DNA of 28,749 nucleotides from positions 1-28,749 of the forward strand of contig JAKLKB010000144.1 in the NCBI GenBank assembly GCA_023150835.1. The letters run 5' to 3'. Shown here one piece after another: positions 2,284-6,395 of this stretch; within the stretch, counting starts at the first letter, position 1, and every line of letters begins with the position of its first letter. The stretch comes from Myxococcota bacterium. GTDB lineage: Bacteria; Myxococcota_C; UBA6777. The notes beneath the pieces are model-generated. The model ran no database searches. It worked only from the letters and a program-made list of their open reading frames with translations, and had not been told where the DNA came from. The position numbers and the translations under genes were made by a program.

Positions 2284-2360
2284 GTTTGGTGCGGGGTGTC
2301 ACCCCACGCCAAACAAGGGAACTGCGTCGCCTTGACCCCGTTTTGGCGGGGCGAACAGAG
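2284..2360 (-). repeat. Dispersed repeat family 2, copy 3 (reverse)
   Basis: Read on the minus strand it gives CGAACAGA-type ends reversed, an ACGGGGTCAAGG block and a GGGGTGTCACCCC hairpin followed by CAAAC, matching the family-2 copies elsewhere. It lies directly after the TolC-like stop codon and could act as a transcript-end structure, which is inference. Confidence 0.6.
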
Positions 2361-2440
2361 GTTTCCACACAGATCATGCGATATGTCGGGTGGTTCGGAG
2401 AGCTATGTCGGGAGGTCGGAGAGATAGGCGTTTGTGTATC

Positions 2441-2482
2441 TTCTTACGAAATTTTGTGCGGAAAGTCTTTGTGTCGTAAGAA
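2441..2482. promoter_or_regulatory. Perfect 9-bp inverted repeat, candidate operator
   Basis: TTCTTACGA at 2441-2449 is mirrored exactly by TCGTAAGAA at 2474-2482, with a 24-base spacer. It lies 112 bases upstream of the first gene of the toxin-like cassette and in AT-richer DNA than its surroundings. Toxin-antitoxin operons are often autoregulated through such dyads, so an operator is plausible. A long-loop RNA hairpin is the alternative. No DNA-binding protein is recognisable in the cassette. Confidence 0.4.
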
Positions 2483-2594
2483 ATAGTGTGGACACAAGAG
2501 TCTCGAGATGTTAAAACAAAATCGTTCGATCCGTTTGGCAATGCCTCCAACCCGATAAGTCGGGGACTACATCGTAAACAAAGGAGATCTGGTC

Positions 2595-3086
2595 ATGCCT
2601 TTGCCGTTAATTCCTCTCATCATTGGCGGCGTTTCTTTGATCGCTGGGGCGATCGGAGCCAAAAAGGGCTACGACGGTGTCGTAGACATGAACGAAGCGA
2701 ACAAGATCGCAGAAGAAGCGAAAACTAGGTTGGAGCGCCATCAGGTCGGGTTGGAAGTGGAAAGAACCCGAACACAAAAAGCAGCGGAAGAATACGGAAA
2801 ACAGTTGCTTTTGATGAAAAAAGAGACCCTTCAATCTTTTTTAGATTTTCTCCAATCCATCGAGCGAAACGGTGAGCAAGAAGCCATGCTGCGCCACTTG
2901 TCGGATATCGGTATCCAAAAGACGGAGATCCAAGAGTACAAAATCGGCGTCAAAGATGCCGTTCACCTCTTGGGCGGTGCGGCAGCTGCCGTGGCTGGCG
3001 GTGCGGCGGCAGACGTTTGGAGATACCGCCCACAAGAAACGACCACAAGAAATGGCGAGGGACCTGATGAGTGTTGCAGTTCTTGA
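2595..3086 (+). CDS. Glycine-zipper small membrane-associated protein
   Basis: The 163-residue product starts with a hydrophobic Gly-rich segment (residues 5-25, containing LIIGG and LIAGAIGAKKGYDG), continues as a charged helix likely to form a coiled coil (about 30-115), and has a second Gly/Ala-rich segment (about 123-142). It recalls a widespread family of roughly 300-residue proteins with the same N-terminal zipper followed by a larger glycine-rich membrane region; that comparison is from memory. This version would be a short form. The start has AAGGAG eight bases upstream. The end overlaps the next gene by 20 bases, so translation is probably coupled. The Cys-Cys-Ser-Ser tail is odd. 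Function is unknown; membrane action is inferred only from the hydrophobic segments. Confidence 0.65.
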   Translation: MPLPLIPLIIGGVSLIAGAIGAKKGYDGVVDMNEANKIAEEAKTRLERHQVGLEVERTRTQKAAEEYGKQLLLMKKETLQSFLDFLQSIERNGEQEAMLRHLSDIGIQKTEIQEYKIGVKDAVHLLGGAAAAVAGGAAADVWRYRPQETTTRNGEGPDECCSS

Positions 3087-3543
3087 CATCCACACATTGC
3101 GCGAACTCGCGCATCCTCCGCTCTTATCCAACGTCGATCCACTTGGCTTCGAGCAGCGTCGAAATAGGATTGAAGCTGCGACGGAAGTGATCCGCGAATA
3201 CTGGAACGAGCTTCCTCTGCCGATTAAGGACGAAGTGGTTCGGTACGTGCGTTTGCTTGTGGATTCGCCAAGCCTTTCTTTTTGGGAAAGCCTCATGCAT
3301 CGGGTCTCTGTGGTCGGCGGTTTCCTCGCGGTGGCTTACCATTTTTTCGTGGACAAGAAATCGATGCACTCGTACGTTGGATATGTTCAATCCGTCGATC
3401 GACTGATTCAGACGGTGCTTGATGCGGTGGAGAGAGAAAACGCTTTCTATCAGCAAGCCATCCAGATTTCAAAAGAAGAAGAAGGCAAGGAATTGAAAGG
3501 AACAACGGCGGGGGATTTTCGTGACTTCCTTGGAAGGTTATAG
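3067..3543 (+). CDS. Hypothetical helical protein, middle gene of toxin-like cassette
   Basis: I do not recognise a family for this 158-residue protein. The frame is open further upstream, but the ATG at 3067 is preferred because GAGGG lies six bases before it (3056-3060) and it overlaps the upstream gene by only 20 bases. The sequence looks largely helical, with a moderately hydrophobic segment around residues 80-95 (VVGGFLAVAYHFFV) that could be one membrane helix or a buried core helix. The C-terminal third is charged. It overlaps the downstream RelE-like gene by 23 bases. By position it could be an antitoxin or immunity partner of that gene, but no antitoxin fold or DNA-binding motif is visible. 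Confidence 0.6.
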   Translation: MSVAVLDIHTLRELAHPPLLSNVDPLGFEQRRNRIEAATEVIREYWNELPLPIKDEVVRYVRLLVDSPSLSFWESLMHRVSVVGGFLAVAYHFFVDKKSMHSYVGYVQSVDRLIQTVLDAVERENAFYQQAIQISKEEEGKELKGTTAGDFRDFLGRL

Positions 3544-3964
3544 GTTTCTGATCACGTCTTGCTTTGAGCGGAGTTATCGGGACGTGTGCAAAAAGCACTA
3601 CAAGAAAGACACCAGAGGGCGAGGTGAACTAGACGAGCTTGTGGGCGTTTTTCTTTCGTCGATAAAACAAGACTATAAACATCCTCAATCTTCTCTTGAG
3701 CCTTGGCCGAATAAGACGCACCAAGAGCCTTGGGAACTTTGGAAGCTACGCTTCACGATGCCTCGACAGTCGGGTAGTTCTAGTTATGGTCGGCTGATCT
3801 ATTGCGTCGATCCTGTCGATCGGTGGGTAAAGCTGATGTTGCTGTACACCCACGCTGAGTATGAGGGGCGACCAAGCGATCAACAAATTCGAGAGGCTTT
3901 TCACGAAGAAGTTGAGCCGCCACATCACGCGGAGCCGCCACCCAGCACAGAACCATCTTCCTAG
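3521..3964 (+). CDS. RelE/HigB-like toxin-family protein
   Basis: The 147-residue protein starts with GTG at 3521, with GGGGGA at 3510-3515. Residues about 68-115 carry the pattern typical of RelE/ParE-superfamily toxins: an ELWKLRF strand, a basic/Ser segment (PRQSGSSSYGRLIYCV), then a hydrophobic strand and YTHAEYEG. RelE-type toxins are ribosome-dependent mRNA endonucleases, and HigB and ParE are relatives with other targets. The protein is longer than typical toxins (about 90-110 residues), with an extended N-terminus and a Pro/Glu/His-rich tail. No canonical small antitoxin gene adjoins it; the two overlapping upstream genes are the only candidates. Fold assignment is moderate, and toxicity is inference. 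Confidence 0.6.
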   Translation: MTSLEGYRFLITSCFERSYRDVCKKHYKKDTRGRGELDELVGVFLSSIKQDYKHPQSSLEPWPNKTHQEPWELWKLRFTMPRQSGSSSYGRLIYCVDPVDRWVKLMLLYTHAEYEGRPSDQQIREAFHEEVEPPHHAEPPPSTEPSS

Positions 3965-4034
3965 AAAGATTTGCCTTGATTAGCGCGATTAGACATGGAT
4001 GGTTTGATCGGGGTGTCGGCGGGAAGTACAGGGT

Positions 4035-6200
4035 TTATTCGGGGAGGATGTTGGGGTAGAGGGCAAATTTTTCGCGAGCGGCCCCGGAGGGTCGGGCTTC
4101 GGGATGTTTTTGGAGGAAGGCTTGGTAGGGCTGGTTGAGGGCGTGGGGGAGATCGCCGTAGACCATCTTGACGAAGCCAACGATGCCTTGGACGTGGTTG
4201 CGGGTGTCGGCGTCGAGTTGGCCTGTGGGGATCTTGGCGGCAGCGCGTCGGAGGACGCTGCGGAAGGTTTTGATCTTTTCACGGGGGATGCGGATCTGTT
4301 GGTCGTCGATGCGAAGTCCGCATATCTCGAGGTCTTGGCCTTTGGCGACGGAAGCGGAGTGGACTTTGTGGGGATGCCAGCGGAATCCAGCGTTTTCGAT
4401 GATGGATTGGACTTGGAGGAGGAGGAGTTCGGGGAGGTCGTCTTGGGTGGAGAGGGTGAGATCGTCGGCGTATCGGGTGTATACGATGGGTGTGTGGTAT
4501 TCTTGGAGGGAGGCGAACAGGCGTTTGTCGAGGGTGAGGCAAGAGAGATTGAGGAGATAGCCCGAAGTGGGGGCACCTTGGGGGAGTTCGTTTTTGTGGG
4601 TGGTGAGATCGGCGATCAGGGCGACGACATCATCGCGCAGTTCACGAGGACAACGCAGTCCGAATTTTTTGAGAAGAGCGCCAAGACCGACCTGCATGAC
4701 GTGTTTGACGCGGGCGGTGCTGACGGACGGGAAAGCATCTTTGAGGTCGAGATTGAGCAAGTGTTTTGCGCCGAGGTGGGCTTGTGCGTTGGTGACGATG
4801 GATCGGCCCGGGACGAAGCCATGCGAGGCGACAGAGACAGGCATGTGATAGAGGAGTCGGTCAAGGATGCGCTCTTGGACGGCTTTGAGTTCGCTTTTGG
4901 GCGAAGATATCTGGCGGGTTTTGCCGTTGCCTTTGGGGATCTCCCATTCGTCGTAGCCAAGTCCGCTTTGGGCGAGTTGTTGGGCCAGTCCGACGTAGGA
5001 GGGGGAAAGGTCGAGCCATTGGGCAAGAAGGGAGACGGCGTCTTGGGCTTCGACAGGTCGGGGAGAGGTGGCGGCGATCGCAGGTGCGGTGATCTCGGTT
5101 TCATCGGGGAGATCGCGTGTTTTTCGATAGCGTTGGTAAGCGTCTTTGATCGAGGGGGGGAGTTGTTCGCCGTAGACCTGTTTGAAGAAGGAGATGATCC
5201 CGCGAATCTTGCTGCGTCGTTTGATCTCGGTGCGGGGGTCGGCGATATCGAGGGAGCGTTCGAGAGCTTCTTGGCAGCGTTCGATCAAGAGGGGGTCGGC
5301 TTCGAGTCGGCCAAAGCGGAGAGTGACGCCGCAGATGACGGCGTTTTCGTGTTGTGTGTCGACGAGTCGGGTTTTTCCGCGATGGAGGCGGAAGTCATTT
5401 TTGATCACCGCGAGTTCGAGTTCTTGTTGGACGTTTTGGGGGATCGAGGTGGGGGTTGAGATCGTGATATCGTCGATGTATCGGGAATAACGAAGGCCGA
5501 GTTCTTTGTGTTGATCGATGATCTTGAAGATCTTGCGATCCATCTCAAGGCAGGCGAGGTTGAGGAGGTAGCCTGAAGTGGGTGCGCCTTGGGGGAGAGC
5601 GTAGACGGTGTGTGCGCCTTGGGGGGTGGCTTCGGTTTGGCGCATGGTGGTGAGAGCGGCGAGGAAGTGGAGGGCTTCGTCGAGGGGAGAAGGGCCATCA
5701 TGGAGGGTTTTGGCGTGGGGGAGGGGGCCAAACTGTCGAAAAAGTGGTTTGACGTAGCGTCGAAAGATCGTGTGGACGCGAGGGAGCCGGACCGAAGGGA
5801 AGGCGTTGCGCAAGTCCATCAAAAGGAGTTGTTGTGCATCGGGGAGGTGGTGCATGGCGTTGGAAACAACGGAGCGACCCGGGACAGCGCCATGTGCGGC
5901 GTTGGAGACGGGGATCGGGTAAAGCAAGCGATCGAGGATGCGGCGTTGGATCTCTTTGAGAGCGCCGTAAGGCTCGTAGATATCGCGCCATTCGAGGCGA
6001 CCGGGTTTGGGGATGCGGTAGTGAAAATAAGCATCATCGGAGCGCATGGCTTGGTGGACTTCGGCAAGCAAGGCGGCATCGACATCGAGCCATTGAGCGA
6101 GCAGTTGATGTGCCGCTTCAGAATAGCTTGCGAGCGGCTGATACGCGCGGATGGTGAGGTGAGCAGTATTCCGTTTGCGTTTAGGCGTGTCTTGAACCAT
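4035..6200 (-). CDS. Tandem double reverse transcriptase (two fused retron-type RT domains)
   Basis: The 721-residue protein is an internal duplication of a retron-type reverse transcriptase. The N-lobe has an NAxxH-type region (N114 to H118), motif A Asp D129 in LLLMDLRNAF, LPQGAPTSG at 202-210, and YIDD at 241-244. The C-lobe has N471 to H475, D485 in LLNLDLKDAF, LPQGAPTSG at 539-547, and YADD at 577-580. Both lobes thus keep all three catalytic aspartates and a Phe at the expected steric-gate position. Each has a thumb-like end (IRGIISFFKQVYG; VQGIVGFVKMVYG) and an ICG tripeptide (289-291; 626-628) where retrons usually have VTG. A charged linker of about 30 residues joins them. The ATG at 6200 follows GGAGAGGG on the minus strand (6205-6212). 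No nuclease, maturase or effector domain is fused. Family is firm; function as defence, retron or other is open. Confidence 0.93.
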   Translation of the reverse strand: MVQDTPKRKRNTAHLTIRAYQPLASYSEAAHQLLAQWLDVDAALLAEVHQAMRSDDAYFHYRIPKPGRLEWRDIYEPYGALKEIQRRILDRLLYPIPVSNAAHGAVPGRSVVSNAMHHLPDAQQLLLMDLRNAFPSVRLPRVHTIFRRYVKPLFRQFGPLPHAKTLHDGPSPLDEALHFLAALTTMRQTEATPQGAHTVYALPQGAPTSGYLLNLACLEMDRKIFKIIDQHKELGLRYSRYIDDITISTPTSIPQNVQQELELAVIKNDFRLHRGKTRLVDTQHENAVICGVTLRFGRLEADPLLIERCQEALERSLDIADPRTEIKRRSKIRGIISFFKQVYGEQLPPSIKDAYQRYRKTRDLPDETEITAPAIAATSPRPVEAQDAVSLLAQWLDLSPSYVGLAQQLAQSGLGYDEWEIPKGNGKTRQISSPKSELKAVQERILDRLLYHMPVSVASHGFVPGRSIVTNAQAHLGAKHLLNLDLKDAFPSVSTARVKHVMQVGLGALLKKFGLRCPRELRDDVVALIADLTTHKNELPQGAPTSGYLLNLSCLTLDKRLFASLQEYHTPIVYTRYADDLTLSTQDDLPELLLLQVQSIIENAGFRWHPHKVHSASVAKGQDLEICGLRIDDQQIRIPREKIKTFRSVLRRAAAKIPTGQLDADTRNHVQGIVGFVKMVYGDLPHALNQPYQAFLQKHPEARPSGAAREKFALYPNILPE

Positions 6201-6235
6201 CTAACCCTCTCCTTACAAGGCTCACTAGGACGACG

Positions 6236-6256
6236 GAGGTTGCGGGGGCAAACCTC
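6236..6256 (-). other. Hairpin 24 bases upstream of the RT ribosome binding site
   Basis: GAGGTTGC (6236-6243) pairs with the right arm ending AACCTC (6251-6256), giving eight base pairs with one bulged A and a GGGG loop on the plus strand (CCCC on the RT sense strand). It would be in the 5' leader of an RT transcript. It could be part of a larger structured RNA or a translational control element; neither is shown. Confidence 0.4.
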
Positions 6257-6364
6257 GCGGTGTTTACGAGAAAAGACCGTGAATAGGAAACTGTTTGGAA
6301 CGAAGAGCAATATGCTCACAGGACGCAAAGAAAGGAAAGGAGGCGGCTTGGGCTTGGGGGGATA

Positions 6365-6395
6365 TCCTCTCTCGGGGCGCAGGGGGGAGAGAGGA
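6365..6395. other. Nine-base-pair inverted repeat in the RT-upstream spacer
   Basis: TCCTCTCTC at 6365-6373 is the exact reverse complement of GAGAGAGGA at 6387-6395, separated by a 13-base G/C-rich loop. It lies about 165 bases upstream of the RT start on its sense strand. The stem is of the kind seen in structured noncoding RNAs, but purine-rich repeats of this type are common in this spacer, so the support is limited. Confidence 0.35.

Follow-up and report, generated by a model that had tools for sequence, protein, structure and literature searches.

Retron reverse transcriptases (RTs) are defined by the NAxxH motif of region X, and myxobacterial retrons have been described as vertically inherited (PMC6868368). 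The RTs of Mxa1 (Mx162) and PADLOC type XIII share the retron-type fold of the enzyme described here and supply the best family model for both of its lobes. They differ from it in having a single lobe, an N-terminal extension and the TSP, FF and VTG motifs. Retron-Eco2 (Ec67) also has the retron RT fold and is a top structural match. In its complex the msr RNA belonging to one protomer reaches across to the next RT (PMC12405507), which makes it a noncovalent counterpart of two joined RTs. However, Retron-Eco2 has one RT domain fused to a Toprim effector, forms a homotrimer, and has a known msr-msd and a known defence role.

Two reverse transcriptases in one system are also found in DRT3 (PMC13174585). 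In contrast to the enzyme described here, those of DRT3 are encoded by two genes and belong to different RT classes (UG classes 1 and 2), and the ncRNA and the products are known. The second domain of DRT7 (UG10) is a primase-polymerase and not an RT. DRT7 is nevertheless similar in that a second DNA-polymerising domain is joined to the RT in one polypeptide (PMC13174585). The G2L4 RT is chromosomally encoded and dimeric, and one subunit of its dimer has been modelled as leading and the other as trailing (PMC12337344). It is chromosomal, as the present enzyme is, and would resemble it also in being domesticated and in the asymmetric use of the sites of an RT dimer; the isoleucine of its xDD motif (PMC12337344) is also found in the N lobe here. 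In G2L4, this isoleucine of the YIDD motif promotes strand annealing at the expense of primer extension, and the residues around it are F149/F150 and P213 (PMC12337344). The G2L4 enzymes are of a group II intron-like lineage and are homodimers of one-lobe chains, whereas the pair described here is covalent and carries I or L in the xDD motif of the N lobe only.

The window, that is, the whole stretch of 28,749 nucleotides analysed here, encodes a tandem (two-lobe) RT of the retron lineage on its minus strand (4035..6200). The open reading frame begins with ATG at the 6200 end and runs down to 4035 over 721 codons without an internal stop, and orthologues were found in five of the five genomes examined of the lineage. 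The presence of two RT domains in one polypeptide, which had been claimed from the sequence alone, was confirmed. The 721-aa product has two Pfam RVT_1 matches, each half matching RVT_1 only, and a lobe HMM built in this analysis matched residues 28 to 387 with 506 bits and residues 386 to 720 with 552 bits. The N lobe (residues ~28 to 366; 5103..6119, minus strand) was delimited by the lobe HMM, the predicted fold and matches in the PDB and comprises fingers, palm and thumb. It is followed by a poorly conserved linker (residues ~367 to 385; 5046..5102, minus strand) in which pLDDT falls below 50, and by the C lobe (residues ~386 to 705; 4086..5045, minus strand), which was delimited by pLDDT and the RT_XIII match and is nearer to other retron RTs.

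Both catalytic triads lie exactly where the sequence-only reading had placed them and are invariant in the five homologues. In the N lobe, they consist of the motif A aspartate D129 (5814..5816, minus strand) and the xDD pair D243/D244 (5469..5474, minus strand), and in the C lobe of D485 (4746..4748, minus strand) and D579/D580 (4461..4466, minus strand). The NAxxH and LPQGAPTSG motifs, claimed for both lobes, are likewise present and invariant in both lobes of all five homologues. The surroundings of the two active sites differ. The xDD motif of the C lobe is the canonical YADD, which occurs in every other retron RT sampled, unlike that of the N lobe, which reads RYIDD in the window copy and RYLDD in the other genera. 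The N lobe also has N or H at position +3 of motif A and carries an extra hairpin, predicted as a beta hairpin, before motif 4. A G2L4-like active-site plug is not claimed for the N lobe, because the insertion is a predicted hairpin and extra residues at this position occur in myxobacterial RTs too; the plug of G2L4 RT3a was not seen in the tandem RT.

The tandem RT belongs to the retron RT lineage and forms a deep, separate branch among retron RTs. When each lobe was searched alone against models of the RT families, as the earlier reading had proposed, only retron RT models came out on top in PADLOC and NCBIfam, and RT_XIII scored 140 bits with the N lobe and 231 bits with the C lobe. The group_II_RT_mat model reached 75 bits versus 313 bits for the retron model, and the Drt3a model reached 40.7 bits with a cut-off of 200. 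The nearest solved sequences and folds were those of the retrons Ec86, Eco2, Eco7/Ec78 and Ec83. The N lobe folded alone gave a pLDDT of 84.7 and a pTM of 0.83, and the C lobe in the full-length model had a pLDDT mostly above 90; the best structure matches of both were retron RTs. The pTM of the full-length model was 0.50, with the confidence lying within the lobes and not in the docking of one lobe on the other.

Although RT_XIII was the top HMM, filing the enzyme as retron type XIII was rejected on account of the tree, the missing N-terminal extension and the loss of VTG. Just ~27 residues precede the N lobe, compared with an extension of about 100 to 180 aa in type XIII. The tandem RT differs further from type XIII in that no partner genes were detected, and in the trees it branches outside that group. 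The tandem lobes grouped by themselves and fell outside the clade that holds the closest type XIII hits (97/87), with weak support for the deep forks.

The sequence-only reading had attributed the built-in RT pair to an internal duplication, which is supported by the phylogeny of both lobes, by derived residues that they share, and by homologues of equal length. In two maximum-likelihood trees (40 and 46 rows, the deepest forks being weakly supported), the N lobes were monophyletic, the C lobes were monophyletic, and the two groups were sisters (100/99). The lobes share 35% identity (179 bits). Both carry TSG instead of TSP in motif 4, DxxxAF in motif A where relatives have DxxxFF or DxxxFY, a VTG changed to [IVL]CG (N lobe, [IV]CG; C lobe, [IL]CG; in five of five homologues), and a spacing between motifs 4 and 5 that is longer by 2 to 3 residues. 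These four features were not found together in any sampled relative. Since the lobes are sisters and share derived residues, an internal duplication of an already unusual RT is indicated. The simplest account is that a single-lobe RT which already bore the derived residues was duplicated in frame before the three genera split. A fusion of two unrelated RTs was rejected because the lobes are sisters in the trees. After the duplication, the N lobe diverged more than the C lobe, with a stem branch of 1.1 to 1.2 versus 0.21 to 0.26. Our confidence in the anatomy and history of the tandem RT is high.

The same protein, 717 to 721 aa long, was found in all five genomes examined of a phylum-level lineage (one class, one order, one family and three genera), so that homologues of the two-lobe length, which the earlier reading had proposed to look for, do exist. 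Their identity to the window copy ranges from 55 to 98%, and between genera it is 55 to 61%. A public metagenome-assembled genome, KLAP109 (labelled Myxococcota), has the same protein at 98% identity, apparently on the same contig as in the sister species G001, whose genome is one of the five. Because only five genomes carry the gene, its universality in the lineage rests on a small sample. An assembly artefact, in which two RT genes were joined or one was duplicated, had been named as a way in which the tandem could be spurious. It was rejected, and its probability is negligible, since five separate assemblies carry the two-lobe protein at 55 to 98% identity and since, for an artefact by duplication, the lobes are just 35% identical at the protein level. 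Between the two sister species, dN/dS was 0.055 to 0.086 for the N lobe and 0.053 to 0.073 for the C lobe, the ranges reflecting the method. These values, 0.05 to 0.09 overall, mean strong purifying selection on each lobe, and both are therefore kept by selection.

A screen of roughly 970 genomes and of plasmids, phages and viral contigs found no two-lobe relatives outside the lineage. The genomes screened were 381 diverse ones, 195 of the phylum of G032, judged to be myxobacteria, and 8 and 386 of two further phyla, in sets that partly overlap. Few candidates were scored per genome and the thresholds were strict, so that rare or divergent cases may have escaped, and the viral scans depended on conserved peptide patterns. 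The long open reading frames among the inspected matches had one RT lobe each. The open-access papers searched contained no description of an RT-RT tandem and no named RT class of this architecture; its coverage of retron classification was incomplete, and an earlier mention is possible. The statement in the sequence-only reading that two-RT defence systems use separate genes fits the sources searched, in which prokaryotic RTs have one RT domain each and other arrangements consist of two genes or of unrelated polymerase domains.

The five longer RT open reading frames L191 to L195, from the phylum of G032, are 661 to 909 aa long and have one lobe preceded by 180 to 580 residues.

The neighbourhood of the RT was compared in three genera. 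In g2 and g3, as in the window genome, a TolC-like gene adjoins the RT in convergent orientation, and a TonB receptor lies on the opposite side of the RT in two genera. A gene nearby in all three genera presumably encodes a relative of HMG-CoA reductase, a name given from the sequence and not from a family search. In this comparison the RT is 56 to 60% identical between genera, versus 38% for the TolC-like protein and 29% for the TonB receptor, and thus evolves more slowly than the flanking genes. The spacer between RT and TolC measures 9 bp from stop to stop in G001 and 48 bp in G004; in G002 and in the window genome the gap is occupied by unrelated inserts. Because the spacer varies and the inserts are unrelated, there is no constant partner gene. 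No conserved effector-like gene was found beside the RT in the three genera, no PADLOC match among its neighbours, and no defence island or sign of mobility around it. By these comparisons, the RT is vertically inherited at one fixed chromosomal place among resident genes.

The insert of the window genome (window 2290-3990) is ~1.7 kb long, has three plus-strand open reading frames (163, 158 and 147 aa) and is absent from G001. The 163-aa frame has hydrophobic or glycine-rich ends, and none of the three had a noteworthy match to a Pfam, PADLOC or NCBIfam family. The insert looks like a recently gained small cassette. As a partner of the RT, the three-gene cassette (window 2595-3964) was rejected, being absent from the sister species and without a family match. 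G002 has a different insert of two open reading frames (207 and 215 aa) between RT and TolC (L013:10346-11613). Different inserts at the same gap indicate that it is a recurrent insertion site.

The defence system implied by the sequence-only reading was not borne out: the locus is resident and fixed, inheritance is vertical, no partner is conserved, and no ncRNA was established. A fused defence system with two RTs was considered all the same, in which one lobe would copy an RNA and the other would make the complementary strand, the resulting double-stranded DNA giving immunity to phages. Two intact and diverged active sites in one polypeptide would suit such a system, and the synthesis of complementary strands by two RTs has been shown for DRT3 (PMC13174585). 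However, DRT3a and DRT3b are of different RT classes, whereas the lobes here are sister retron-type RTs, and the present gene occurs in five of five lineage genomes examined with neither a defence island nor a mobility sign. We judge this explanation improbable. The fixed place of the gene in every relative examined points to a resident role rather than to a transient defence gene or a misassembly.

The 5' leader of the RT gene (6201..6392, minus strand) is conserved in the alignment of the window with G001 and is a candidate ncRNA or regulatory leader. Over its 192 bp there is one substitution, with ~17 predicted from the flank (binomial P 4.5e-7, a value somewhat flattering since the block was chosen after viewing the alignment). 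The conserved block, which comprises the leader and the 5' coding end, extends over 364 bp from 6031 to 6392 with one internal difference, at position 6250. Divergence between the two genomes is 13.6% at fourfold sites of the RT and 8.75% in the upstream flank. The conservation of the leader looks real for the one species pair on which it rests. In the g2 species pair, leader conservation was not seen beyond a short element.

This element, TTGTTGTATGGT ... TTTGACA, lies about 75 to 115 nt upstream of the RT start and is conserved between the two g2 species (L013 and L006). It is a candidate promoter or RNA hairpin.

The leader bears on the main rival to a resident function, namely, a retron with a hidden ncRNA, which we regard as a real but less than even possibility. 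According to this explanation, the conserved leader encodes the msr-msd RNA and the two-lobe RT makes msDNA, with one lobe binding msr and the other copying msd, or with both handling one RNA. Any effector would be encoded at a distance from the RT or be missing, for which there is a parallel in myxobacterial retrons that are inherited vertically; the existence of such retrons is documented (PMC6868368). Both lobes fall within the retron RT family by models, tree and fold, both have NAxxH, and the near-identity of the leader is what an encoded RNA would lead one to expect. On the other hand, both lobes of every one of the five homologues have [IVL]CG where region Y of nearly all sampled retron RTs has VTG, and an effector is not linked to the gene. 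No recognisable msr-msd was found at the tandem RT locus. The leaders folded no better than their shuffles (z of -1.77 to +1.37), and a consensus fold over four leaders contained no pairs. The search for a1/a2 inverted repeats gave candidates in every leader, none of them shared, and their level was judged chance-like, without a shuffle control. An Rfam search of the leader gave no match and was uninformative, the leaders of genuine relatives being silent too. A search of the genomes with the leader sequence gave good matches at the RT loci of the two sister species and nowhere else.

The tandem RT is a retron-lineage RT that was doubled and apparently domesticated. From the two intact sites, their asymmetry and vertical inheritance, we infer a domesticated, covalent and asymmetric RT pair. 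That this is a stand-alone host enzyme whose two RTs act on one nucleic-acid substrate is the reading we prefer, at about even odds. A single retron-lineage RT with altered active-site surroundings underwent in-frame duplication in the common ancestor of the lineage, and the covalent pair was then inherited vertically at one chromosomal place with both triads kept. The C lobe, with its canonical YADD, may be the main DNA-synthesising site. The N lobe, with I/LDD, N or H in motif A and the hairpin before motif 4, may hold or anneal a second strand or an RNA and polymerise conditionally. Candidate substrates are a DNA end or the leader RNA of the RT itself. The covalent pair would thereby hard-wire an asymmetry that G2L4 obtains through homodimerisation and Retron-Eco2 through bridging by msr RNA. 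Counted from the AQG motif, P213 of G2L4 would correspond to the G of both lobes, and one of F149/F150 to the A of both lobes. The phenylalanine that follows this A in motif A, which we take to be the sugar-selecting residue, is kept in both lobes; DNA synthesis is therefore the expected chemistry.

Several observations do not fit a resident asymmetric pair easily. NAxxH in both lobes suggests that retron-like handling of template and primer is still selected, and the conserved 364-bp block exceeds the needs of a simple promoter. The parallel with G2L4 is convergent, those enzymes being group II intron-like, and the N-lobe hairpin, for which the prediction shows no plug, is matched by an equivalent in myxobacterial RTs.

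The asymmetry could also mean that the N lobe is catalytically silent and serves as a structural or RNA-binding platform for an active C lobe. This proposal concerns the N site only and can be combined with either the resident pair or the retron. The N lobe is the faster evolving of the two by its stem branch, it has N or H at motif A +3, and it has I or L in its xDD motif, a change that in other RTs is reported to work against primer extension (PMC12337344). Nevertheless, its three catalytic aspartates, its QG motif and its NAxxH are invariant in five genomes, and selection acts on it and on the C lobe with equal strength. To our knowledge, silent polymerase lobes normally lose the catalytic Asp, QG and NAxxH residues. 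We give a silent N lobe less than even odds. A division into one catalytic and one RNA-binding lobe, which the sequence-only reading had offered, may apply; because both triads are intact, the N lobe would be altered rather than dead.

If both sites of the resident pair work, the enzyme might be the first cellular one with two working RT sites in one chain, a two-site polymerase derived from a domesticated retron and with a core resident role throughout the lineage; we put this forward tentatively, as something short of probable. Examples of such a role would be the joining or repair of DNA ends and the synthesis of double-stranded or two-part cDNA. A covalent pair in which both sites have been kept across three genera raises the question of whether the sites work one after the other, on two different strands, or with one catalysing and the other holding. 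The enzyme, with its fixed locus, also offers an example of a retron-lineage RT that has seemingly moved out of the pool of defence genes and taken on a resident role.

The window's own genome contains two more RT-like open reading frames, of 904 aa (L024; G000:C183:40847) and 399 aa (L038; G000:C63:18039); at the level tested, neither is related to the tandem RT.
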